A stretch of DNA of 64,000 bases from Symbiodinium sp. CCMP2592 (Eukaryota; Sar; Dinophyceae; Suessiales; Symbiodiniaceae): positions 666,373-730,372 of the forward strand of contig CAJNDT010003435.1 in NCBI GenBank assembly GCA_905221615.1, in the 5' to 3' direction. This document shows positions 3,646-63,436 of the stretch, piece after piece. The notes under the pieces are model-generated. The model did not search any database, had not been told where the DNA came from, and saw only the letters and a program-made list of their open reading frames with translations. A program made the translations under genes and the position numbers. The number at the start of each line of letters is the position of its first letter. The first letter of the stretch is position 1.

Positions 3646-4644
3646 TCAAGCAATCTATCTATTATCCCTATCTGCATCGCTGTCTAGTCAACTCTAGTCA
3701 CTCTAGTCCAGACAGACCGGAAAAAACTTGAAGCCCTAAGCCCCCAACGAGCAAGACCCGACCACCCGCCGCCCTGCAACACTCGTGATGAGGTGCTTCC
3801 CGAAGCATGTTCTGCAGCCTCAACTGTCGGGATCTAAGCACCACTCGCTGAGGGCTTCATTTCTTGCTTGTGGTTTGGTGTCGGGGGCCTTGGCCCTATT
3901 CTAATTACCGGCCGCAACATTACATCGTCGGCGAAGGCGTGTATGTGGCTTGGGGTCTAACTGCGGTTCTCGTTGTCTTGCAGAGGTACATAGACATACC
4001 GCTTGTAGCCGAGTTTGACACATAGGCACTGCGAGTGTACATGTATCCTCAATCTTGCTCTGGATCTCTCCATCTCTGCAGAATCATGCATGCATGCATC
4101 GCCCAAACGTATACCGTGCAGGGCTGTAAGGTTTGGGAGTTTCATGACTTGATGCTCGCAGCAGACTTTTGCGCACACACAGCCGGAATCAGAAGAGAAT
4201 ATTAGAGGCGCTAAATCAGACTTTAGATCAATCTACATAGAAGGATCCTGAATGCAAGGACACTTCCCCTGCTCACTGCCAGCAATAATAAAGAAGCCCT
4301 ACTTATCTGACACCCGTAGACAGCACTGAAGCCGACGCCTGAAACTTGGCATGTGTTGAAGGCACGGAAGTCTTCCGATTCCTCAAACTCTCCACAGGCT
4401 GCCAGTCCAGTGTTGCGGGGAGGTTCATTCAGGGGCCATATTAGTTAGAATATGGTTGTTGGGTGGAATCTCGTAGACTCTGTAGACTCAAACCAGGAGT
4501 ATGAGGGGACATCACCATACTCCAGAACCACATTCTTACCACAGAATGAAGGCTGCGATATTGATCCTCAAACGGTTCCCGAGTTCAGCGGTAAAGGCTC
4601 TTCCGATCCTTCTTCACATTTTGATGCCTAGCACCTACAGTAGA

Positions 4645-40110: not shown

Positions 40111-41877
40111 TGTGGCACAGACCCGATGCATGTCTTACCGAGATGCATGGAAGGTTCTTTGTCAGCATCCCGACCCATCCGTGGATCTGACTTGGAGGAC
40201 GGTCTTGGATGAGCATCGAGCCGGGGCCCTTCCTTGGTCGGCCTTAGCTCACTACGGACCAGCTCTAGCTTTGCTTGCAATGAGACACATTCTGTCTTCG
40301 GCATGTCGATCGGAAGACAGAGCCGTGGCAGCTCGGTACTCAGCGTGGATTTCTCGCAGATGGGGTTGGCCTTCCACCTGGATCAGGCCGACATGCGAAG
40401 CTGACATTCTGGCGATGTCGCCTCCGCCCGTTTTGCTAGCGGACCCCGAGTCGCCAGTTTCGAGATCGTGCCGGGCGCAATCGCACTCGCGGACGCCGCC
40501 CAGGAACGCCGAGGTTCGGGAGGCTCTCGAACCATCTCTTCTCGAGTTGCCGCCGGATCCGGATGTGTTAGCTTCGGGATCAGGGCGCGCGGCCTCGCGT
40601 TCGCGGACGCCGTCCAGGAATGCTACGGTCGAATCCGCTCTCGAAGTTTCTCCAGCGACGGCGGCTCACTGGTTGGACATGGGTCCTCGCAGTCCCATTC
40701 ATCATGCGGATTCTCCGGGAAGCCTTCGTTGCAAAAGTTTCGAGTCTTTTGTGTCTCCAAAAGTTATGGTTATTTTTGTACATGGATCACAACGATCCAT
40801 ATACACCGACATACTTGCAGCCCGCCGAGGTTGGTGGGCCATGCAGCGACAGGCTTGCCTGCATGTTCCGGGCGCCTGTCCCGGGGAAGATGTGTGCACG
40901 GTTTCCGATTCAGACGATCTTCTGGACAAAAGTCCTTCGGCGTCCGCGTTAGTTCCTGTCCGTGCTCTTCTTCCAGCCGATGTCGCCAAAAGGGATTTGT
41001 GCATACGGCTCGGAGATTCTCCGAAGACAATGGCTGCCAAACGTCACCTGCCTTGTATGTAATTGCATGCAGTATTACCTGGGTTTGCGTGCGTTGCAAC
41101 CGAGGTTCTTTGTCTCGGAAAGCAAAAGCCGCGAGAGATTCTGAAGATCCCGCAGCGGATCCCTTTCAGGACGGCGCGGTTCTCTTGCCCGCCTTGAAGA
41201 TTCCTTCTGGTTGGCAAGCTCCGAACGCCGAAGAGTTGGATCAGTTCAACAGCCTCAACGACGGGCGCCGTAGCGATGTTTGTTTTGCCTTCGTTTTTTC
41301 TTTCCTGAAGAAGTGGTCCTCGTTGTGTTAATTACTTGGCGCAGGAAATTCCACCTCGTCCCAAGCATCAGTTGGACACGTCGGCTTCACGCTATTCCTG
41401 GTGGTATTGGACACAGCCCTGGGCTCCGGAGGTTTCCGCATCGCAGCCGGATGCGTACTCGAAAGCAATTCCGCTCGCCTGCAAGCGTGTTTCTGGAGCG
41501 ACAGAGGCTCCTGTCGGTTGTGCAGATTACCGCAAATGCTGTTATTCTTCTTCCATGGCAAGTACTGCTAGTGTGCTCGACAGGATCCCGTCGAGGACCA
41601 GCCGAAGCAAAAGGAGACTCCTCGCAGGGCGGTCCGCTCCAAGTATGGCCTGTGTCCGAAGCATCATTGTGCGCGGCGACCTTACATTTTCGACACTGGT
41701 AGTAATGCAGGAAAACCCTTGCACGTGTGCAGTCGTTTCTTTAAGCGCAGCGGCGACAAACGCGAGTGTTGGCATTTCGAAATCCAGGATAGTCGAGTCG
41801 TGCAGGATCTGTGGCCGAATGCAATGAAAGAGAAGCACTTCAGTTTTCAAGCCCGCCTGAACAGAGCCGGCCGCTGA
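40111..41877 (+). CDS. Multi-exon gene ending in a GRF-like zinc finger
   Basis: Exon pieces inferred from frame continuity: about 40,111-41,054 (after a C/T-rich tract and GTAG|G; donor GTATGT); an exon ending at 41,277 (donor GTTTGT) that reads ADPFQDGAVLLPALKIPSG; an exon from 41,345 (acceptor GCAG|G) reading EIPPRPKHQLDTS; and 41,584-41,877 (acceptor ACAG|G). The first piece has a Trp-rich N-terminus and two near-identical SRSRTPSRNA-type repeats. The last exon carries YGLCPKHH...GSNAGKPLHVCSRFFKR...ECWHFEIQD, that is C-x2-H, GxNxGKxxxxC and a CWxF segment followed by D. This is the arrangement of GRF-type zinc fingers (which bind single-stranded nucleic acid in known families). The start codon is probably in an upstream exon, and exon 2's left edge is unclear. 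Confidence 0.5.
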
Positions 41878-42556
41878 TCTCGGGCTCGGAAAATCAGGGA
41901 CCGGCAATCTCGGTCGCATCTGGCGACTGTGCGGTCGAGAATATTCATGCGATTTCTTAGTTGTTTTCATTTGCATGCCGAACAGCGCGCAGGCTTGCGC
42001 GTGCGGCACGTTAATTAGCATAATTAGGGTTGGCGACAGCCGTGTTGGTCTCGATCTTTCCATTTTCTTAGGGTCGGGAACACGGTCACCTCGCCTGCTG
42101 TGATCAGCACATGCATCATCTCGCCGAAGAACATTCGGCGAATGTAATTCGCAGCCATCAGGATAGCCGACACGGATACCTTTCTCGACGGAAAAGCGGA
42201 AAAGTATCCAGGCGCCAGCTTCCGTGTATCGGAAGCACGGAGTTCGGGCCGATGCGATAGCCCTGCCATTTCTCTTTCGGAGTCGACCGTTTGCCCGAGG
42301 CGCCTCGCCGCAGCATCTCCGCGATGCGCTGCTTTCATAGGCCTGCCCGTGGGGGAAGCCATGCCTTTTTGCGAAGGATTTCGGAAGGGTTCGAGTTGCA
42401 GGTGTGTAGAGAAGCAGGATGAGCAGGGCCAGGCAGTTGTTTCGGAAGCTAACGCGGGGTTTGTGTGCCTGTCTTGAATCGGCAACATGGAATCGCGCTA
42501 TCCGTGGTTTTTGGATTCGAGGAAGGAGTGAAGCATGCGAGACAGCTTTCACGTTC

Positions 42557-42586
42557 AGGCTCGGCTACTGGCCAGTCCACGCCGAG
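42557..42586 (+). repeat. CTCGGCTT hairpin element, copy 17, at the edge of the 7.4 kb element
   Basis: GGCTCGGCTACTGGCCAGTC then CACGCCGAG. Its right end is 14 bp from the left inverted repeat of the element. Confidence 0.65.
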
Positions 42587-42600
42587 CATCCGAGTGTTTA

Positions 42601-42686
42601 TGTTATAGATCTACACTTCTATAGAAAAGTGTATATATATATATATATATATGCTACCCCCCCCCTCCCGAATCCGCGCTTTGACT
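42601..42686 (+). repeat. Left terminal inverted repeat of the 7.4 kb element
   Basis: TGTTATAGATCTACA, CTATAGAAAAGTGTATA, a TA run, GCTACCCCCCCC, CCCGAATCCGCGC. Partner at 49,893-49,985. Confidence 0.8.
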
Positions 42687-42894
42687 GTTTGTGCTCTACT
42701 GTGTCCTATTAAAATGTTATCCAACCCAAACCTCTAACCGACCCCAACCCCAAAGCCACAGACTCCACTCGCCGCGGCATCACCTGAGCTGGGCGGGAGG
42801 TTTTCAAAACAAAGTACGAAGACACCCTACACACCAACAAAAATAACTTTAGTTCCGATCCCATGGCCGCTTGTTTTTGCGCGAGGATGCCCCG

Positions 42895-43383
42895 TCAGTG
42901 AGCTCGCTTGGCGAGTTCGTCTAGGAGCAAGGCGTACTCCAACTGTGTGAGACGTCGTTCATCGTCATCGTCGTCGTACGTGAAGCAGTTGCCCTTGCAG
43001 CGCCAAACCACTGTTCCTTATGCAAGACCAAGACTTTGAGCTCAGCAGTGATGTTTCTGCTTACAGTACTACGATATACTAACCGCGACCAGGATTCCGT
43101 TCGGAAGATTTACATAGCGGCGAGGCCACTCAACTGGAGCTTTAGGTACAACCATTGGGTTCACGGGCACAACACCCAAGACTAACTTGAGGATATCATC
43201 TGCGACACATACCGGGAGATGCTGCCATATCACCACATCAAAGGACCAAGTCTCCATGGCGTCTGCTTTGCAGGGACGATCTCCGACTCGACCTGTTCCT
43301 ACGATAGCGTTCTTGAGTTGCAGCAGCTTCGTGCAGTCTAACGGTTCGATTGCTTCTTCGGGCACTGAGGGAGCGTTTCTCCA
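42895..43383 (-). CDS. Unrecognised spliced gene in the 7.4 kb element (3' exons)
   Basis: Two exons, 43,383-43,080 and 43,016-42,895, separated by a 63-nt GT-AG intron (donor GTATAT, acceptor ATAAG|G). Exon phases match exactly (304 nt, then 2 nt plus 40 codons including stop). The product ends with an acidic patch YDDDDDERRLTQLEYALLLD. The middle reads EWPRRYVNLPNGILVAV. An upstream exon reading QLEKVLAQVLDPWPEKNWLC ends at about 43,448 across a further 64-nt GT-AG intron, in phase. The start is not found. No family recognised. Same orientation as the other genes of the element. Confidence 0.45.
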
Positions 43384-43619
43384 CTGGAAGATCAGACAAG
43401 ATACCAACGTACAGCTATTCAACCAGAAAACCGAATTACTGCTCCACATCAAAATGAACCCAAATACATTTCAAACGGCTACATAACCAATTTTTTTCCG
43501 GCCATGGGTCCAGAACTTGAGCCAGGACCTTTTCTAATTGCAGCTGAGTCGCTGTGTAACACCACCGCCAGAAAAGACTGAACAAGAACGCTTGTAAGTA
43601 TGGTGTTCATGCAAGATAA

Positions 43620-44095
43620 GTGATAGGGCAGAGCTGCCGTATCACTTGAACATGCGTGACACGAACGACTGCATGTGTATACATTATTTGTCGTTACCTA
43701 CACGCACACACATACCACACGTGTTGTCTTCATGTGTTGCGAGTGATAAGGCAGAGCAGCCGTATCACTTGTGACACAAAGGACTGCATGTGTATAAACT
43801 ACTTTTTTGATATATAAATTCATGCATATACCGCACGTGTCTTCATGGTCTGGTTACGTACACGCACGCACATACCACACGTGTTGTCTTCATGTGTTGT
43901 GAGTGATAGGGCAGAGCAGCCGTATCACTTGAGACACAAAGGACTGCATGTGTATACACTGCTCTTTTGGTATGTAAACTCATACATATACCGCACGTGT
44001 TGTCTTCATGTGCTGTGAGTGATAGGGCAGAGCTGCCGTATCACTTGGGTGCGAGTGACACAAACGACTGCATGTGTGTGTGTGAGAGAGATTGT
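43620..44095. repeat. Four-unit minisatellite, each unit with a GTGATA...TATCAC hairpin
   Basis: The hairpin GTGATAGGGCAG-AGC-TGCCGTATCAC (arms GTGATA, GGCAG / CTGCC, TATCAC) occurs at 43,620, 43,743, 43,903 and 44,019, in units of about 115-160 bp. Units share CACACGTGTTGTCTTCATGT and GACTGCATGTGTATA. In the middle two units GAGCTGCC becomes GAGCAGCC, which removes one pair of the inner stem. The array lies just downstream of the transposase gene. A TG microsatellite follows at 44,072-44,106. Confidence 0.8.
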
Positions 44096-44388
44096 GTGTG
44101 TGTGTGCCGCATGCCTGCACATGATTGACAACATAGCTCATACCAGATGCACTTGCAGGGAGAATGCACGGACGTTTTCGTTTACATCGTTTCATGGGAT
44201 TGCGAAAAAACAGTTAAAGCAAGACAACCAGCAGCGACGATTCTACAGCACAGTACAGCAGTTACAAGCGAACGAAACGATGTTTTCGAACCACCAGATG
44301 CAGCAGAGAAGGGCGGTCTGAGGGAGCTAGTCGCTCGAAAGGTGCCTCACGCGAGCGAAGATCAGAGTCGTTGTCATTGTAGACAGAC

Positions 44389-45763
44389 TTACTTCATAAA
44401 CTTGCGCATGTTATCAGCGCACAGTTCGCCAAACTTAAGCCATTGGTCCTCATTACGGTACCAATACTCATATTGAGCAGACCTCAGTTTGGCACATAGC
44501 TGTCTGCTACCAGCCTTGGTGTGCTGGTTCACTCTGACCCGGTCCTTCAAAAACCTCCAACAACGATCGATAATCTGTGTTCCAGACTTCACAACGATCT
44601 TTTTGTTGGACTTAGGGATCTTGTGGGTCACGACCTTGACATACTTCGGGTTCTGCCAGATGAACTTGCCGTTGCGCTTCACGCGCTTTTTGGCATGAAC
44701 TACCTTGTCGTGAATGACACCGTCGATCTTGGCCTTGTAGGACCGGGCCGCATCCGTGTGGAGGACAACCTTGCGGTCCTTGAGAAGCTTCGTTCCTAGG
44801 GTCTTCCACTCGGTGCGCCTGATTGCTCCTGGCCCTGGTGCTCGCTTGACAGTGAGTTTCGGCTTCAACCTGGAGAGTATGAGCGTTTCAGGGCGGCCTC
44901 GCTGGATTACCCCCGCCCACTGTTCCCACATGGTCGTGGTTTTGTTGTTCTTCACGAGGTGCTTGAAGTCCACATCCTGGGAAATATCCCTTCTGTCGAA
45001 TGTAGCTTCATCCTTGCATGTATTTGTTGAGTGTCTGAGAGCATTGTTTGTTTATGTCTTACTTCCGAAGCTTTATCTCTGAGATTCCACAATCTTTATT
45101 CGAAATACACCAAAGCCAGACAACATGATGTAGACGACAAGTTGCTGCTTCCACATCTTTCCAGGTTTTGCCGTCGCCAAACACGATGTTTTTCTCCTGC
45201 TTTTCCACGAATGCTTTACGAAGGTCGCAAATCCTCGTCTCCATGTCTTCGATAGCCTTGTGGTTCACATTCAAGAGGACGTGGATGGCTGGATGTGGTA
45301 CGCGTAGCAGTTTAAGTAGCAGAAGAGATGCTTGTATCTGGAGGCCCCGTGAAGATGAACCCGTTCCTTGGGTGAATACCGGATGCAAGTGGTGAGGGCT
45401 CACATACTTGTGGCAATGGCGGGAGCTGCACCGATGTTTGTACAAAGAGGTGCGCTTTTCCACACATAGGTCGGACAAGATGCCAACCTGACAGTGAGGG
45501 CACGTCTTCCCTTTCCACTTCGGCAAAATCTTGTCCGCCACGAGCATAGTGATAATCTTCTTGTCGCTGGCCATGAGGAGCTGAGGAAGACTGCGTTGCC
45601 ACTTGATCTGGTCCTTGCGTTGTCCGCGTGGACCAACAAGGAGTTGCTCTCGGACATACGGTGTGTCCTTCCACAACTTGTCCTTCTTGATGGCAGGCTT
45701 CTTCTGTGCAGCACGGAATTTGCCCTTCTTGTGGATGATGGGTTGCTTGCACACCTTTCCCAT
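44389..45763 (-). CDS. ISXO2/IS1595/Merlin-type DDE transposase, 413 aa, one GC-AG intron
   Basis: Exons 45,763-45,146 (206 codons) and 45,012-44,389, separated by a 133-nt intron with donor GCAACT and acceptor GCAAG|G. Splicing gives WKDVEA-DEATFDRRDISQDV, which restores the family's first catalytic Asp (residue 207). Before it are a zinc-binding region (Cys 88, 91, 112, 117 with neighbouring His) and a helix-turn-helix-like segment (about residues 130-185). The second catalytic Asp is in VVLHTDAARSY (293). The third position is Asp 355 in GTQIIDRCWRFLK, followed by Trp +3 and Lys +7, the spacing of the family's E..W...K motif. Length is within the usual range for eukaryotic Merlin transposases. 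The frame is intact, so it may be active. It lies between the hairpin minisatellite and the helicase-like gene, on the same strand. Confidence 0.8.
45013..45145 (-). other. 133-nt GC-AG intron in the transposase gene
   Basis: Starts GCAACTTG and ends ATGCAAG, followed by exon base G. The in-frame read-through hits a stop, and skipping it joins two halves of a conserved catalytic motif. The GC donor and AG|G acceptor are typical of dinoflagellate introns. Confidence 0.75.
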
Positions 45764-46189
45764 GGGTGGACAAAGCTAGAAGAAAACGGACTGGCTCTTG
45801 AGATGCTGCAAGACTCAGAAGCAGAATGCAGATTTGTTGGGAAGCAACGTGTCTTGATACTAAGCCACGATGTCAGACAAGACTGTGCTGCACAATGGAG
45901 CATGTTGATTCAAGTGCATACTGTTCGCAAGGATTTTTTCTGTCTGTGCAAGGCTGCGATCGGAGATTGACTCGTATGTATACGTGTTCTCTGAACAAAA
46001 AGGCAGTTATGTAATCATGCATAGTCACGGCAAGAATCTCGTGTAGTTACATGAAGATACCCGTTGTGCAAGAACACGATACTCAAAATACGAGTGTCAC
46101 ATCGTTGTCGACTGCACGATGGCTGTGAGATTAGCACTCAGATGTCTCAGATGTTGTTCTTGACTCTCAGATGTGCTGGATGCTGGGTT
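45764..46189. other. Spacer between helicase-like and transposase genes
   Basis: About 420 bp with no further supported frame. It should hold the 3' end of the helicase-like transcript and the 5' region of the transposase. I see no distinct terminator or promoter motif. Confidence 0.5.
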
Positions 46190-48613
46190 TCACTGGTGGT
46201 CGTCCTTCGCGAGTTCCTCCGCGACCAAAGCGTCGAGCTCTTGTGATAGATCATCCATAGGATCGCGGATAGGCGACGCAATGTCCATCTCACTGCCGGG
46301 ACTGGAAGGTGGAGGATTTGGAATGTGAGGGCCACGCGGATCGGCAGAAGTTGCAGATGTCTTTGGCGATGGGACCTTCGATTTCGGAGAAGGCCACGGA
46401 GATGAAGACCTGGGCTTTGCACATGCCGCAGAAGATGGCGAAAGGTCGAGTTGTACATCTGACTTTTGAAGAATAGATGCAGTCACCGGTCGGGGAGATG
46501 CTTTGGGGGATGCCTTTGACGGAGATGCAGCTGATGATGAGTCTGAGATGTTAATCTGCAGAGGTCTGTTGCCAGATGATCTTTTTAAGTTTGCAAACAT
46601 TGCCTTGACGTCCTCCGGCTCTTTTTTTATGGTGACCTTAGTACAAGAAAAGCACACAACCATAAGAGAAAACAAAAAAAACAATCATAGTAAAAAACCT
46701 AAAACCTCAAACCCTCACCATACCAGCCTCAGCCGAGAAACGCTTGGAGCAGACATCTGGGGATTGAGGTCTACTGCATGAGATTCCTGCTTCGGTTTAT
46801 CTTCGTCATGGTGGTGCTCGTCATGACTGGTCTCGTTGGTGAGCAGAGCATTGGAAGACCGCACAGATTTGAGGCGCTTGGCAGGGAGGCTAGCTGGAGC
46901 ATCTTGGCAGAGGTCGGGATAGAAGACGGTCGTGGCGTCGATGTTGGCGAGCTCAGGACGGCACTCACGCACAACTTTTTTACCAGAGAAGTCCTTTTGC
47001 ATAACTGTGTAACACCGGCCAACCGCTTCACCGTCGAGGGCGGCTTGCAACAAGTTGAGCGACCATTGTAAGTTGACGCTGTGGTTGGGCGGCAGCTTGG
47101 AGAGATTACCCTTCTTGTAGGCGTCGAAGATTGGCCTGGCGCACGGCGACACCATGCCGAGGTCATCGGAAGGCCAAGCATGCCGTTTGACTGGTGCTTG
47201 CTGTGTGCCTGGAGGACGAACATAGATGCCCATGTCTGTGAACACGACGATGGCAGACCGCTTGAAAACGGCAATCAGATCTTCATCATTGAAGTCTTTG
47301 TGAAATGAAGGACGCACCAAGTCGTAGAAGGTCTTGAAGTCAACCTGATCAGAAGATACATTCTTGTCCATGGGCTTGGCGGCTTGGTGGTCGTAGGGGT
47401 TCGAGCACACCTGACAAAACTGATTCTTTTCATACGATGACGCATTGTATCGCGCCATGGTCTTGCGATCCACACCCGACACTTCCAAAATAGCTTTCAC
47501 CGATGCAGGGAGCTCTGTTGGAAGGTTGCCATCGTCGTAGACGCGCGGCTTTGTCCGACGCCCCATCTCCTTCCGGAAGTAGTCTAGATGATTTGCCGTC
47601 TGGAATGTAGGCCCCTGGTGGTCACGACCCTCTTGGAGCAGCCAATAAGCGGAAAGAACCTTTGCGAGTGTGTAGGACAGCGGGCTTTTGCCAACATAGG
47701 ATTTACCAATCCAGATGACACCGCTCTCGATGACATAAGGCAAGACCGGTGCGATGACTAGGTTGATGGCCCACGGAGTGAAGTCTACGAGAGTGAGCGG
47801 CCAGTCTGCGATAGTTTTCGCTTGCGACCCTTTGTCCGCCAAACAACGAAGATATTCTTTGATAGTGCCCCTGTCCCACCGAAACAACGGTCCGTTTGGA
47901 TCATTGACTTGCTCCTCCGTCCAAGATGTGAACTCGCCGTTGGAATTTTCCTGCGGCCCGTGCTCCTTCAGGAAGGTGAAGCCTTTGCGGATGTCTTCCG
48001 TTTCCTTCACCGGCTTGGTGCTTGCATTCCCAGGGACGAGTTGGTGGTACCGAACCTGAAACCCACCCAAGCCTTCCAATAGATATTGTAAGGCACGAGA
48101 ACCTTCACGGAAATTCTTCTGGTAGTTAATCTCCAAAGGCCTCCCCGTGCACATCGTTTTAATGGTTGAACTCATCATCCTGGTGCCGTCGGCGAACCTG
48201 ACATGCTTCACAATATCCCATTTGTTCGCCCCTTTTGGCAGCAAGAACAATTGCATGGTGTAGGGATGGAGATTGTTACCTTTCATCTTGATTGGCTCAG
48301 GGAGATCGCTGTACCTCTGCTGCTTGAAGAGAGTTTCGATGATTTTGAGGTCTAGGTCACCCTCGTAGTCCATCAAAACTTCCAAAAACTGCACCTTTTT
48401 GTTCATACTGTCCACGATCTCGTCTTTTGCAGGCAGGTCCCCGATCTTGATGGCACCAATGGGCTTATTCACTACCAACGGCTTGTCCAAAGTCATGATT
48501 TTCATACCATCGGTGATGCCAATGGCTTCTTCCCATGTAGTTGTGCCGTCCAAAGTAGCTTCGTTCATGGATTGCGCGAGTGACACCGACCTCTGCGGTG
48601 GCAAGGACGCCAT
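46190..48613 (-). CDS. SF3 helicase-like ATPase, 778 aa, one intron
   Basis: Exons 48,613-46,724 (630 codons) and 46,636-46,190, separated by an 87-nt GT-AG intron (donor GTATGG, acceptor CTAAG|G). I start at MASLPPQRSV because the frame further upstream runs into the inverted-repeat array. Residues 303-310 are GKSYVGKS, a Walker A loop. KPRVYDDGNL (355-364) fits Walker B with two Asp. FCQVCSN (399-405) fits SF3 motif C with its invariant Asn. Spacing A to B is about 50 and B to C about 45, within the range of SF3 helicases of small replicons. A basic stretch (RKTMAR, 383-388) may hold an arginine finger. The C-terminal 150 residues are Ser/Pro/Lys-rich and probably disordered. No HUH nuclease motif is visible. 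It is probably involved in replication or transposition of the element; this is inference. Confidence 0.65.
46637..46723 (-). other. 87-nt intron in the helicase-like gene
   Basis: GTATGG at the 5' end and TACTAAG|G at the 3' end. The phase is zero on both sides and the downstream exon reads VTIKKEPEDVKAMFANL, protein-like and in frame to a stop at 46,190. Confidence 0.6.
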
Positions 48614-48769
48614 GAGCGACACAAGGGGGCAAAAGCTACAGCAAAATAACTTGAGCGAGTAGTCTGCATCAAGAACATTTGCTTCTGACACCATCATTCT
48701 GCACGAGACATCGTCTGATTCATGAGACTGTGCATCGTGGCAGGTCTTCAGAGTTACCGGTGTCTCAAA

Positions 48770-49640
48770 CATTGGTTTTTTGAGACCCTCTCGAGACTTG
48801 GGAGCTTCAGAGCTTTCAAAGACTGGAAGGGTTTCAAAAAAATCCATCTTTCGCTATCGAAAAACAGCGAAACCTTGAGAGAGTCTCAAAAAAACCTAAA
48901 AAACCAATCGTGGCAGGTCTTGGGAGTTACCGGTGTCTGAAACATTTTTTTTTTGAGACCCTCTCGAGACTTGGGAGCTTCAAGGCTCTCAAACACTGGA
49001 AGGGTCTCAAAAAAAACAATCTTTAGAAGATCCGGTATTGGTTTTTTTGAGACCCTCTCGAGACTTGGGAGCTTCAGAGCTTTCAAAGACTGGAAGGGTC
49101 TCAAAAAAACCAATCTTTAGCTATCGAAAAACAGCGAAACCTTGAGAGGGTCTCAAAAAAACCTAAAAAACCAATCGTGGCAGGTCTTCGGAGTTACCGG
49201 TGTCTGAAACATTGGTTTTTTTGAGACCCTCTCGAGACTTGGGAGCTTCAGGGCTCTCAAACACTGAAAGGGTCTCAAAAAAACCAATTTTTGGAAGATC
49301 AGGCTTTCTGAAGAGTGTACGGGATTGGTTTTTTTGGTTTTTTTGAGACCCTCTCAAGGTTTCGCTATTTTTCGATAGCGAAACATTGGTTTTTTTGAGA
49401 CCCTCTCGAGACTTGGGAGCTTCAGGGCTCTCAAACACTGAAAGGGTCTCAAAAAAACCAATTTTTGGAAGATCAGGCTTTCTGAAGAGTGTACGGGATT
49501 GGTTTTTATTGTTTTTTTGAGACCCTCTCAAGGTTTCGCTATTTTTCGATAGCGAAACATTGGTTTTTTTGAGACCCTCTCGAGACTTGGGAGCTTCAGG
49601 GCTCTCAAACACTGAAAGGGTCTCAAAAAAACCAATCTTG
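48770..49640. repeat. Array of six long inverted repeats upstream of the helicase-like gene
   Basis: Each palindrome begins with GGTTTTTTTGAGACCCTCTC and ends with AGGGTCTCAAAAAAACC, with about 40 bp of CGAGACTTGGGAGCTTCAGG-type sequence between. Centres are near 48,810, 48,980, 49,077, 49,248, 49,423 and 49,598. The last three units are 174 bp apart and nearly identical. Between palindromes lies a smaller hairpin TTTCGCTATTTTTCGATAGC/GAAA. The frame across it (ETLSVFESPEAPKSREGLKK repeated) has the period of the DNA repeat and is not treated as coding. The position next to a helicase-like gene suggests an origin-like or transposase-binding array. Confidence 0.8.
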
Positions 49641-49892
49641 GGAAGATCAGGCTTTTGGAAGAGAGTAAAGAGAAGCATGTCAAGTTTCACGTCCAGTTAC
49701 ATGTGCATGTGCACGTACACATTCACGTACAGTGTTTTCTGCATGCACATGTAGACATACACAGCAAGACGAACAACACTATACCGGCGCACTGGACATG
49801 CGAACGAAACCAAAAGAACAAAAAACGAAGGAAGCAGTGAAGAACTTGACCATGCACTCGAGGATCGCACCTGCAGCAAGGCTTGAGGGTGT

Positions 49893-49915
49893 GGATTCCG
49901 GGGGGGGGGGGTACC

Positions 49916-49948
<33 letters not shown>

Positions 49949-49985
49949 TTTATATACTTTTCTATAGATATGTAGATCTATAACA
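49893..49985 (-). repeat. Right terminal inverted repeat of the 7.4 kb element
   Basis: GGATTCCGGGGGGG, GGTACCATA, a TA run, TACTTTTCTATAG, TGTAGATCTATAACA: the inverse order of the left end. Confidence 0.8.
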
Positions 49986-50241
49986 CCGAGACCTTAACGG
50001 CGGCAGTCGTTGATACTGAAGACCGTAGTCAAGCCTCAGAGCAATGTAACTTTGTTTACGAAAACCCCTCGGAATTGCATGTATTGACAGAGTAGGCTTC
50101 AAGATGATATCGTTTCTTGGTCGGCTCCCGCGCAGTCTTGTTCTTATTGTGCTAGTCAAGGCCAGGTTTGAAAAAAAAACGGAGTTCGTGGTTCATGACC
50201 TGAAGCCATAGGACAGCAAATTTTCTTCGAACACCGACGCA
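49986..50241. other. Right flank of the element, no feature
   Basis: Unique sequence. No duplicated target site, hairpin copy or supported frame. Confidence 0.5.
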
Positions 50242-50790
50242 ATGCTCTCGCATCTCAACCGGTCCCGTGCGCGGTACGAGCTTCAGTCGGCAGATGTTAA
50301 TTCTGCCGAGGGACTGAGGTCGCCGCTGCCCGACCTGGAGCCGCGGTCGGGTGCGGCTGTCGTCTCCCGGCCCTCTTCGACGGCTGCGGATACCGGCGCG
50401 GATTCGGACGGGGAAGGCTCCCCGACGAGCGTCTGTTCCGTTTACACGGTGTTCTCGTCCGAGACCGAAGAGGCCATCAGGGGGGGCGTGGACACAACGC
50501 GACTCTATGCTCGTATACTGGCTGCCATCATCGCGCGCGCTCGTCGGCGGCTCCTCGCGTGTCCTGAGCAAGTTGTGTTCTTGCAGAGACCACTAGCAGC
50601 GGCCGTAGCATTGCACTTGCGGGGGGTGCGGATTCTCAGAGCATCGATTTTTCGCCGGCTGCACGATCTGCGTCGCATGGATGCGTTCGAAGAACGCGAA
50701 GTGCGTCTAGTCATTGCGGATTTATTGTTTGCTCTGAGATTGACGGCGCCGGACGGCGGACGAATCTCAGGATCATTGGCAGACCGCTGA
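50242..50790 (+). CDS. Unrecognised protein, 182 aa
   Basis: ATG start; the N-terminal half is Ser/Asp/Glu-rich and probably unstructured. The C-terminal half is helical and Arg/Leu/Ala-rich (ARILAAIIARARRRLLACPE, LVIADLLFALRLTAPDGG). No motif recognised. It could be a single-exon gene or a 5'-truncated fragment next to the element's insertion site. The antisense frame (139 codons) is less protein-like. Confidence 0.35.
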   Translation: MLSHLNRSRARYELQSADVNSAEGLRSPLPDLEPRSGAAVVSRPSSTAADTGADSDGEGSPTSVCSVYTVFSSETEEAIRGGVDTTRLYARILAAIIARARRRLLACPEQVVFLQRPLAAAVALHLRGVRILRASIFRRLHDLRRMDAFEEREVRLVIADLLFALRLTAPDGGRISGSLADR

Positions 50791-51122
50791 GCCTGCGGGT
50801 CCCGGAGCTGTCACTTCCAGGCTAATTCGTAATTCCCTTTGCAAACGTTTAATGGAAGGCTCGGTTGGAAGCGGTCGCAAAGCAGCTTTTCATTGTATCT
50901 TTGCATCTTTGGGAATCATAGGAGTCAAGAAGCATAGTCCGTGCCAGGTTCGTGGAGCTTCGCAGGACCTGCAGTGCGGAGTCCTTGGTTGGATCAGGCG
51001 CACCCGTCGAAGTTGCATGTTCTGTTTGGCCGCAAGGTCCTTTTATTGGCGTCTGCACGCACTTGCATTCTCCAGGCCATTTGGGCTCTTTGAGTTTGGA
51101 AAGTGCCCTTGTCCTTTCGGCC
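50791..51122. other. Intergenic stretch before the MULE cluster
   Basis: Nothing supported; short frames only. Confidence 0.4.
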
Positions 51123-51152
51123 GGAGCTTCGGCTGCTGGCCAAGCTAAGTCG
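51123..51152 (+). repeat. CTCGGCTT hairpin element, copy 18
   Basis: GGAGCTTCGGCTGCTGGCCA then AGCTAAGTC, ending 9 bp upstream of the ATG at 51,161. Confidence 0.6.
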
Positions 51153-51160
51153 TCCAAGCG

Positions 51161-51751
51161 ATGAAGCGACCTGCAGCAATGCTCGAGACGAATGCTTCTT
51201 CCGGGGAGTCGGGCCAATGCTTCTCTAACAGTGGGCGTTTCAAGCTTCGCCACACCGAAATAGTTGCAGGCCTGCAGTATCCCGGCTTGAAAGCCTTGGC
51301 GGAGCGCTGGTGCGCCACGTCCGTTCCCCTTCGGTACACGGCCATCAAATCCAGCAAGAAGACCGCTCCGAAGAAAGGATGTGCGGATTTTCTCCGCATG
51401 GAGTTTTGGTGCAACTCTTGCATCCATTGTCACGGAAGGAAAGGGTGGCGTGGCTTTGCATCGTACGAGAAGGAAACTGTCCGCATCTACACCACCGAGG
51501 ACTCGGAGCACGGCAACTGGGACTACAAGTACGGAGGGCGACAGAAAGGTCTCGACTCGACCGCGAAGGCTCTGGTCAGGCAGGGCGTGCAGAACTTTCC
51601 GAACAACCACGAAGTGGCGGAGTTTGTTTGTCGGCACTTGCCGTCGGGGGTTGAGTGGCCGGAAGAGAAGAATTTGAGGTTATTCATTGAGAACTACCGC
51701 AGGAGGTTGCATCGCAAGGCTCCTCCGCCGCTGCCCATCGGAGCAGCCTGA
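51161..51751 (+). CDS. Free-standing MULE-type DNA-binding domain, 196 aa
   Basis: Homologous to residues about 45-195 of the intact transposase at 54,187: ERWCATSVPLRYTAIKSSKK, FWCNSCIHCHGRKGWRGFAS and SEHGNWDYKYGGRQKG correspond to KWCATAFKGRTMAIKSSK, WCNSCIKCHKNKGWQGF and SEHGNWDYRYG. This CxxCxxC(H)...HGNW pattern is the zinc-binding (WRKY-GCM1/FLYWCH-like) domain of Mutator-like transposases. The catalytic core and SWIM finger are absent. The frame is open with its own ATG and stop, so it could act as a DNA-binding repressor or a domesticated factor. It could also be a truncated relic. Confidence 0.6.
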   Translation: MKRPAAMLETNASSGESGQCFSNSGRFKLRHTEIVAGLQYPGLKALAERWCATSVPLRYTAIKSSKKTAPKKGCADFLRMEFWCNSCIHCHGRKGWRGFASYEKETVRIYTTEDSEHGNWDYKYGGRQKGLDSTAKALVRQGVQNFPNNHEVAEFVCRHLPSGVEWPEEKNLRLFIENYRRRLHRKAPPPLPIGAA

Positions 51752-61523: not shown

Positions 61524-61556
61524 GGGTCTCGGCTCTCTAGCCAGGCCAAGCTGAGC
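61524..61556 (+). repeat. CTCGGCTT hairpin element, copy 33
   Basis: GGTCTCGGCTCTCTAGCCAG then GCCAAGCTGAGC, then AGCACTCGACATACATCTTC. Confidence 0.75.
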
Positions 61557-61603
61557 TAGCACTCGACATACATCTTCAGGTACTCGTTACGAGGCCTGTG
61601 TGC

Positions 61604-61638
61604 AGGGTCTCGGCTTTCTGGCCAGGCCAAGCCGAGGC
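61604..61638 (+). repeat. CTCGGCTT hairpin element, copy 34, upstream of the ankyrin gene
   Basis: GGTCTCGGCTTTCTGGCCAG then GCCAAGCCGAGG, then AGCACTCGACTCACATCTTC. Ends 46 bp before the ATG at 61,685. Confidence 0.8.
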
Positions 61639-61684
61639 AGCACTCGACTCACATCTTCACTTTCTCGTTGCGAGGCCCGTCGCT

Positions 61685-63436
61685 ATGGCTTTGCATGTGC
61701 CTTTGAAAATACAAATAGGTAACGGCCCCAGCGATCTGTGCGCGGGGTTGCTGGATGGTCTGGCCAATTGGGTCAAGGCGCCGCCACACCTGTTCTGGGG
61801 GATTGGGGCCTCTCTGGTCGGCGTGCCAGAACTGAAGCGGAATCTTGGGCGTGCTCTTGGCACTGCTTCTGTGTTTCTGCAGCTCAGGGACAATGGACGC
61901 GATGTTGTTTGCAGAGTGTCCTGCCCTCCCTTCGTGCACGTGCACTTCCTGCCGCCACTGCTACATTCCTTCGAGTGGGTAAAGATCGTCTGCGTCCTTT
62001 TCGAGCAAAATGACGAGTCGGAGGCCTTGGCGGTGCTCATGCACAGGGAGGTGCCGGAGCTTGCTCACGAGATCTGGGACGAAGTGTTGTGCATCGTACG
62101 CCATAAGCACTTTCACGTTCTCATCGTGCTGATTTGGCGAGGCCGCCTTGCCCTCGATCATCTACACCTGGTGGAAGCTTCGCCATCCGGGCGCGCTCCG
62201 CTCCTGTCGCTGACTGTGAACGACCATCGAGGCCACTTCGAAGCGCTTTTGGCATTGCGCGCGGAGGTTAACTGCCCGGACAGTCGTGGTCATACTCCTC
62301 TGGCTTATGCGGTCCGTGCCCGCTCGCCCGCTCGCGCTACGCTGTTGCTACAGGCAGGTGCCGCGGTCGCGCCGGACACGGGATATTGCCCGCTCCTGCT
62401 GTCCGTGGCTGAGAGTCAGCGTGACATGCTGCATATTCTGCTGCATGCCAGGGGCTGCCCTCATCGGCGTGCCCCATCAGGCAGCCTTCGCGGAATTTCT
62501 CCTTACGATTTGGCGTGTCAATGGGATGATGAAACGACTCTGCGGTCTTTCCGACTGCATGGGCACCACGCCGCTGGCTTGCACCCGCCGATCCTGCCCG
62601 TTTGTTATTCTTTGAGCGGCACCGAAGTTGCCCTCAGCGAAGCCGGAGCCCAACACATTTCGGTGCTCGAGCATTGCCATCGCATGCCTTCGGCGGGGTT
62701 GGCTGCCGAAGAACACGATGATCGGGTTGCCATCACCTACGCCTCTTCTTTGTCTGTGCGGGCTTATGCATTGGCCTTGCGGCGTGCTCTCGTTGGGGGT
62801 CACCATGACTCGGCCGCTAACATCCTGGAGCGTTATCCCTTCTTGATCAACGAGCAGGAGTCTCGAGTGTGGGGCGAGCAGGGCCTTCCTCTTCTTTGGG
62901 CGGTCGTGCGACAGGAAGCCGGTGCCGTTTCCACGCTGTTACAGGCGCGGGCCTCTCCGAACGCAACGCCCGGTCACGCTGCCCCGTTGCTTCTTGCGGC
63001 TCGACATGGAGGAATCGAAGCGGCCACTATACTTCTTATGGCACGAGCAGACGTCGGTCACGTTGGTGCCGGCGGCCAGTGCGCGCTGAGCGCAGGGGCG
63101 GAGCGTCAGTCTTATCCGGTGGTTTTGCTTCTCCTGGAATTCCGCGCTCATGTGAGTCAGGACCCGGAGGATCTTTTGCCGCTACTGGACAAAGCATTTT
63201 TGGGTGCTCGCAAAGATTTGGACCATTGCGCCACGCCGGCTCTATTGCTACGAGCCGCTGGTGCCCTTCCGCACTCCGCACTTTTCCATGCCGTAATCTC
63301 GGACCTCGTTCCGCGGCTCGTGGCCGAAGGCCACTGGTTCGGCCTCTTCGTGCTTCAGTGCTGGGCGCATTCTCGGTCGGGGCTCGATTCGACGGCCGTC
63401 CCAGGCTGTCCTGTCGCTCTGGCTTCGGGCTCCTAA
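61685..63436 (+). CDS. Ankyrin-repeat protein, 583 aa
   Basis: ATG at 61,685 (MALHVPLKIQ); the frame is open further upstream, but through the hairpin element. The first about 165 residues have no recognised domain. Two clusters of ankyrin-type repeats follow, one around 170-275 (RGHFEALLALRAEVNCPDSR, GHTPLAYAVRA, LLLQAGAAVAP) and one around 395-490 (LPLLWAVVRQEAGAVSTLLQ, APLLLAARHGGIEAATILLM). Each has the helix-turn-helix pattern with xTPLxxA and LLxxGAxxN-like positions. Ankyrin repeats mediate protein binding; the partner is unknown. Single exon as read. The last 80 residues are Leu/Ala-rich with a Trp-containing helix. A 284-codon frame that overlaps the 3' half in another phase is a shadow. 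Confidence 0.7.
   Translation: MALHVPLKIQIGNGPSDLCAGLLDGLANWVKAPPHLFWGIGASLVGVPELKRNLGRALGTASVFLQLRDNGRDVVCRVSCPPFVHVHFLPPLLHSFEWVKIVCVLFEQNDESEALAVLMHREVPELAHEIWDEVLCIVRHKHFHVLIVLIWRGRLALDHLHLVEASPSGRAPLLSLTVNDHRGHFEALLALRAEVNCPDSRGHTPLAYAVRARSPARATLLLQAGAAVAPDTGYCPLLLSVAESQRDMLHILLHARGCPHRRAPSGSLRGISPYDLACQWDDETTLRSFRLHGHHAAGLHPPILPVCYSLSGTEVALSEAGAQHISVLEHCHRMPSAGLAAEEHDDRVAITYASSLSVRAYALALRRALVGGHHDSAANILERYPFLINEQESRVWGEQGLPLLWAVVRQEAGAVSTLLQARASPNATPGHAAPLLLAARHGGIEAATILLMARADVGHVGAGGQCALSAGAERQSYPVVLLLLEFRAHVSQDPEDLLPLLDKAFLGARKDLDHCATPALLLRAAGALPHSALFHAVISDLVPRLVAEGHWFGLFVLQCWAHSRSGLDSTAVPGCPVALASGS

Follow-up and report, generated by a model that had tools for sequence, protein, structure and literature searches.

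Are a transposase gene and an ATPase gene that lie side by side on one strand of a dinoflagellate contig parts of a single mobile element, or merely neighbors? This question is raised by a 64,000-nucleotide stretch of the Symbiodinium sp. CCMP2592 genome (the window; contig C3435, positions 666373-730372), in which a first-pass annotation had described a transposon bounded by inverted ends and combining an ISXO2/Merlin-type transposase with a helicase like those of superfamily 3 (SF3). We searched the 1.098-Gb assembly genome-wide and found a mobile element of 7,263 bp (42653..49915), whose limits we set by aligning it with eight other copies and with four empty sites. It contains two genes, H and T, on the minus strand, each with one predicted intron; the annotation was right about a single strand, but had counted three genes. 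In our reading, to which we give a probability of roughly 0.6, this is an IS1595/Merlin-type DNA transposon with recent activity in which a transposase (T) and a P-loop ATPase with SF3-like motifs (H) cooperate.

The first line of evidence comes from the copies of the element. H occurs at nine loci with 99-100% protein identity, T is present at all nine, and the DNA of the eight copies elsewhere in the genome agrees with that of the window at 99.5-99.96% across 3.6-4.7 kb. In five of the nine, neither gene has a stop or frame break by these searches. Copy flanks differ, except in C1091 and C2109, where a common left flank is combined with different right ones, which points to a possible assembly chimera. 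In all eight further copies, GCTACCCCCCCCC opens the element directly behind TA-rich DNA; in the seven that could be compared at the right end (the eighth runs off its contig), GGGGGGGTACC closes it directly before such DNA. The common boundary is thus TA-rich DNA, GCTACCCCC ... GGGGGTACC, and TA-rich DNA again, with the end pattern G[CG]TACCCCCCCC..GAATCC, and the TA runs and C/G runs noticed earlier at the ends are indeed present.

The second line of evidence comes from empty sites, which also show that the ends named by the first-pass annotation belong to the host. The inverted pair that it had picked out exists (42601-42652 and 49934-49985; 52 nucleotides, 90% complementary), and its 15-mer TGTTATAGATCTACA occurs exactly twice in the window (at up to three mismatches, 0.81 occurrences are expected, and two were reached in 21 of 100 shuffles). 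Genome-wide, however, the exact 15-mer is listed 30 times and forms inverted pairs less than 100 bp apart in 12 contigs; among the exact pairs listed, a spacing of 7.4 kb is found for the window pair alone. Since matches with two mismatches (607+612) are not above those of a backward control (700+725), only exact, paired matches carry weight. We examined four of the 12 close-pair places (L001, L003, L005, and L007), and all four contain both window flanks at 97.4-99.9% identity over 1.48-1.56 kb per side without the element, the alignments breaking at 42649-42652 and 49923-49927. These are empty sites in a repeated host segment, to be set against nine near-identical filled copies, which is the comparison that the annotation had suggested. 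TGTTATAGATCTACA is part of a short palindrome within that segment, into whose TA run the element inserted. The ends at 42653 and 49915, which are common to other copies and lie close to the breaks at the empty sites, define the element. It inserted as one unit into the TA run of this repeated host sequence, of which paralogs without the element exist. The exact-pair search and the empty sites led us to reject TGTTATAGATCTACA as an element end, and the 15-mer was not found in the right-end stretches searched of other copies; ends that other copies do not share are therefore a property of the named sequences, but not of the element. A 5-bp CCGAG duplication beside the TGTTATAGATCTACA ends was also rejected, because two empty sites (L003 and L007) have both CCGAG copies and no element. 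As a separate observation, the sequences flanking the element (41104-42652 and 49923-51485) belong to a recent host repeat, found at 97.4-99.9% identity over ~3 kb in four other contigs.

For the target duplication, several even lengths fit in the plain TA runs that host most copies. In C2236, 8 bp is the sole fitting duplication (AAATATAT), the other seven copies with both flanks, window included, also allow 8 bp, and among relatives C562 fits 8 bp only while C2090 and C191 fit 2 or 8. This agrees with the 8- or 9-bp duplications of IS1595/Merlin elements. TA-rich DNA is seen at the end of the left flanks of all nine copies of the window family, and there is a second family in which the outer 8 bases are all A/T at 18 of 20 ends and ATATATAT at 13, compared with 272 and 24, respectively, among 56,615 positions outside the element (a background taken from this window; the 20 ends are all matches of one end pattern, and some flanks look alike and may be non-independent). 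Genome-wide, TATATATGCTMNCCCCCCC has 812 occurrences against 0 for its backward reading, but since this pattern contains a TA run itself, the number counts ends and is no measure of target preference. At three places (L022 near 4570-4630, the right flank of L015, and L218), two poly-C-ended elements abut across one TA run, which gives such runs the look of landing sites used more than once.

The third line of evidence is that H and T recur together. The matches scored, the best 70 of 333 candidates for H and the best 101 of 329 for T, were merged manually, which left 61 loci for H and 83 for T once extra pieces of split loci had been dropped. Where H is at least 50% identical, T lies within 6 kb at 23 of 30 loci (22 downstream, one overlapping), compared with 3 of the 31 other H loci, and all 26 pairs are co-stranded; nine of the 23 linked loci are copies of one family, which means that these are not 23 independent events. 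Seen from the transposase, a listed H is nearby at 26 of 83 T loci, and 57 have no listed H within 6 kb. Two of these 57 were fetched (L058 and L059), and both hold a diverged H (23-29% identical to the queries) in the order third gene-H-T, which led us to reject the idea that T without H is the rule. In S. microadriaticum, the H homolog P0018 and the T homolog P0027 are numbered consecutively as genes and come from contigs of one size (76,395). Among other homologs, P0011 and P0033 come from contigs of equal size, and P0004, P0014, and P0025 are, by eye, gene models that span H into T. H and T stand as a unit, found together at the nine near-identical loci, and the pairing, which the first-pass annotation had proposed from a single locus, recurs in other Symbiodinium.

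What kind of transposase is T? The gene (45763-44389) encodes 413 amino acids across a predicted GC-AG intron. Its homologs number 201 at E ≤0.01, and those with an organism name among the 120 matches listed are from Symbiodiniaceae. The IS1595 model NF033547 matches 10 of 32 aligned T sequences at E ≤0.01 (best 2.4e-8), and PF12762 matches one of the 32 (0.0032). In this alignment, D207, D293, and D355 are invariant or nearly so, and the cysteines C88-C91 / C112-C117 are conserved, with no Pfam zinc domain matched. Merlin, as against IS1595, is described in the main text of PMC8101967 as lacking the N-terminal zinc-finger domain.

H (48613-46190; 778 amino acids, one predicted GT-AG intron) has 26 homologs by single-sequence search and 55 by profile, the named ones being from Symbiodinium, Effrenium, and Prorocentrum. 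The Prorocentrum cordatum sequence P0174 is a diverged homolog (26-29%) from outside Symbiodiniaceae. SF3 helicases are defined by motifs A, B (an acidic pair), and C, which ends in Asn. Read by eye in an alignment with some truncated rows, H presents these in order: Walker A, DD, K, and N, then R, with the Walker A, DD, N, and R positions conserved across the aligned set. When H was compared with ten SF3 primases, two of which are of the P4 kind and eight phage proteins, the alignment began at Walker A, reached the K-A motif, and kept the register that SF3 motifs would predict; reversed controls gave P values of 0.68 and 0.86. Comparison with a shallow P4 set gave P 0.18, and an SF3 versus MuB profile comparison gave P 0.01. 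No search placed H in an unrelated host ATPase family; such a placement is what the first-pass annotation had said would refute its proposal. We also observed that the tails of H (in the window, P0006, P0010, L051, and L055) contain hydrophobic-acidic stretches, for example INISDSS, INLSDTSED, and VIDLDP, which in our own reading we take to resemble SUMO-interacting motifs. Scans of viral contigs with the H and T alignments gave 7 and 49 candidate stretches, respectively, none confirmed.

H is not confined to one transposase. In L050 and L051, a diverged H (27-29%) is followed by a KDZ-type transposase: that of L050 matches PF18758 (4.9e-5) and CxC5 (5.6e-5), both just under the curated cut-off, while the L051 open reading frame has no KDZ match itself and is related to that of L050 at 8e-14 with 24% identity. 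In L054 and L055, the gene after a diverged H encodes an IS1595-type transposase from a different lineage, the two transposases being 48% identical and matching PF12762 at 6.6e-4 and 0.022, below the cut-off. The KDZ and H unit has moved too, since L051 and L052 agree at 99.9% across 5.3 kb but sit between different flanks. Low-identity relatives of a third gene lie near H in L050, L051, L054, L055, L058, L059, L018, L019, and L028; in the element of the window, no such gene was found. In L018, L019, and L028, this gene is upstream of an H of the window's clade. In C1073 (H 66%) and C671 (H 63%, broken), the third gene is present, and no transposase was found in the ~4 kb downstream.

Even where H and T are paired, their trees conflict. 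The window and L029 are 60% identical in H and 82% in T, the window and P0018/P0027 58% and 91%, and L029 and P0018/P0027 89% and 80%. The H nearest to that of the window belongs to L027 (73%), whose T is 43% identical, over 60 residues only. The T tree groups the window, L029, and P0027 with full support (100/100), whereas the H data reject the same group (p-AU, approximately unbiased test, 5.5e-73); the group was chosen with the identities already known, and in five T rows no more than 34-46% of the columns are filled. The roots of the trees are unsure (long rows L058 and L055; P0144), but the rejected group is independent of the root. It follows from this conflict that elements have exchanged H and T with one another. 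The adverse case named by the first-pass annotation, other copies with a break between the genes, came up only as the exchange of one gene between families. Its idea of a transposon that gained a helicase survives at its core but is too narrow, as H is found with three transposase types and changes partners. A more tentative idea, to which we give clearly less than an even chance, is that dinoflagellates harbor a class of eukaryotic helicase-bearing transposons with the SF3-like ATPase, often joined by a third gene, as their permanent core, while the DDE transposase, of at least three types, is the part that can be exchanged.

How might two such genes cooperate? In the scenario that we favor, T would bind the G[CG]TACCCCC ends, cut or copy the element, and join it, with a stagger of 8 bp, to TA-rich DNA. 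H would be an ATP-driven DNA remodeler or helicase acting at a step common to different transposases, such as unwinding, replicating, or repairing the element, or resolving strand-transfer intermediates; its homologs beside three transposase types suggest a step not tied to one of them. The repeat arrays inside both ends are perhaps candidate loading sites for H; the near-palindromes of the left array sit within a 160-bp tandem repeat region.

Several points weigh against a two-gene transposon of this kind. First, T exon 2 has a frame break in three of the nine copies, H has a stop or frame break in three, and of the 30 loci with H at 50% identity or more, 7 have no T within 6 kb. Second, the T of the window itself has no match at 0.01 in either Pfam or NCBIfam, and all the family matches quoted here for which a cut-off is printed fall below it. 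The third catalytic residue of IS1595 enzymes is E, but the third acidic residue of T is D, so that a DDE triad is not found. Third, the right end starts with GG and the left end with GC, while Merlin inverted repeats start with 5'-GG according to the main text of PMC8101967. Fourth, searches of Pfam, NCBIfam (with four relatives of H), PHROGs, and the PDB gave no significant match and no helicase family for H, and the comparison with SF3 primases reached only P 0.038 over 77 columns (hhalign). Of the 'SF3' label in the first-pass annotation, the motif order stands and a significant family placement does not, which is why we call H a P-loop ATPase with SF3-like motifs. Finally, transposition, an excision footprint, and a circular or self-replicating form are not among the observations.

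The main rival explanation is that H is a target-selecting AAA+ ATPase like MuB, TnsC, or IstB, which coats AT-rich DNA and delivers the transposase. MuB prefers AT-rich DNA, and such an H would explain the insertions into TA runs and fit the A/T-rich ends of both families described above. The P-loops of H and MuB do align (P 0.00029, reversed controls 0.065), but over 25 columns only, and T paired with a very different H (L058, ~24% identical to that of the window) still has poly-C ends in a TA run. Mildly against it as well, as KDZ copies are few, L052 is inserted at AATCGTAA, outside a TA run, and its near-identical relative L051 inside one, which indicates that TA runs are not obligatory with H. 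We therefore see target selection by H as possible but unlikely. It is less probable still that H is a passenger, a selfish or host-interacting gene (for anti-silencing or nuclear import, for example) with no direct role in transposition. There is a precedent for passengers in the TET/JBP genes of many unrelated fungal transposons, as set out in PMC12730594, and the tails of H are low-complexity and acidic, with what look to us like SUMO-interaction motifs. However, the ATPase core is conserved while the remainder of H diverges to 22-29%, and H recurs beside transposase genes on the same strand and in the same order, which suggests more than a rare passenger. That a transposase and a host ATPase gene are chance neighbors, joined by assembly or repeat artefact, is hardly tenable: the genome is repeat-rich and the C1091/C2109 flanks look chimeric, but nine copies with common ends and mostly unrelated flanks, and the pairing in the assemblies of other species, speak against it, and the empty and filled sites refute it in the main.

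The cooperating pair that we favor has parallels in known systems, none of them complete. According to the main text of PMC8101967, where the word helicase occurs 0 times, both S. microadriaticum and S. kawagutii have Merlin elements; these make 8-bp duplications, and the one sized family, Sy.m_F1, is 2.57 kb long. Our element resembles Merlin/IS1595 in its transposase superfamily (by profile, through family members), 8-bp duplications, inverted ends, and recent Symbiodinium copies. It differs in having H as a second gene, with a third gene in relatives, and in the D for E, the zinc-ribbon-like motif, the TA-run targets, and a GG at one end only. Fungal TET/JBP transposons, KDZ elements included, likewise carry one accessory gene across unrelated DNA-transposon superfamilies (PMC12730594), although theirs is a dioxygenase in fungi and ours an ATPase in dinoflagellates. 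From the P4/D5 kind of SF3 helicases, with which H shares, in our own reading, the order Walker A, acidic Walker B, K-A motif, and terminal Asn, H differs by lacking a significant profile match and a primase domain recognized by Pfam. The combination of a DDE transposase with a P-loop ATPase is known from Mu (MuA/MuB), Tn7 (TnsB/TnsC), and IS21 (IstA/IstB), all of which are bacterial, but H has no similarity to MuB, the ATPase compared, beyond the P-loop. The general view of eukaryotic cut-and-paste transposons is that they need a transposase and host factors. A recurrent ATPase partner exchanged among unrelated transposases would be, if confirmed, the eukaryotic counterpart of Mu, Tn7, and IS21 or, alternatively, a step between transposon and replicon, and it would bear on how elements fill the TA microsatellites of very large dinoflagellate genomes. 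No earlier report of the pairing of H with a transposase was found in titles and abstract openings, a search that left most subscription journals and all preprints outside.

Table. Features of the element and its insertion site (positions in the window)
Feature	Position	Strand	Basis or remark
Left half of host palindrome and its TA run (target)	42601..42652	.	Exact-pair search, empty sites
Mobile element	42653..49915	.	7,263 bp; other copies and empty sites
Left terminal inverted repeat GCTACCCCCCCCCTCCCGAATCC	42653..42675	+	23 nt
Four near-palindrome copies TGATAGGGCAGAGC[TA]GCCGTATCA (one further changed)	43621..44043	.	Inside left end
T exon 2	44389..45012	-	D207, D293, D355 (spliced-protein numbering)
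T predicted GC-AG intron	45013..45145	-	133 nt; frame runs on in uninterrupted homologs such as P0028, L058
T (IS1595/Merlin-like transposase) exon 1	45146..45763	-	Zinc-ribbon-like motif C88-C91 / C112-C117
H exon 2, low-complexity tail	46190..46636	-	Similar tails in P0006, P0010, P0012
H predicted GT-AG intron	46637..46723	-	87 nt
H (SF3-like P-loop ATPase) exon 1	46724..48613	-	Start MASLPP common to homologs; frame open to 48847
Tandem and inverted repeat array upstream of H: GAGACCCTCTC x8, GGGTCTCAAAAA x6	48771..49667	.	
Right terminal inverted repeat GGTACCCCCCCCCCCCGGAATCC (minus-strand reading)	49893..49915	-	23 nt
Right half of host palindrome and its TA run (target)	49916..49985	.	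Exact-pair search, empty sites

Rfam and tRNA scans gave nothing informative. Elsewhere in the window, many telomere-like TTTAGGG/CCCTAAA arrays, often imperfect, are scattered over the left half (1-30000), and an open frame at 61541-63433 contains ankyrin repeats (PF12796, 8.9e-13).

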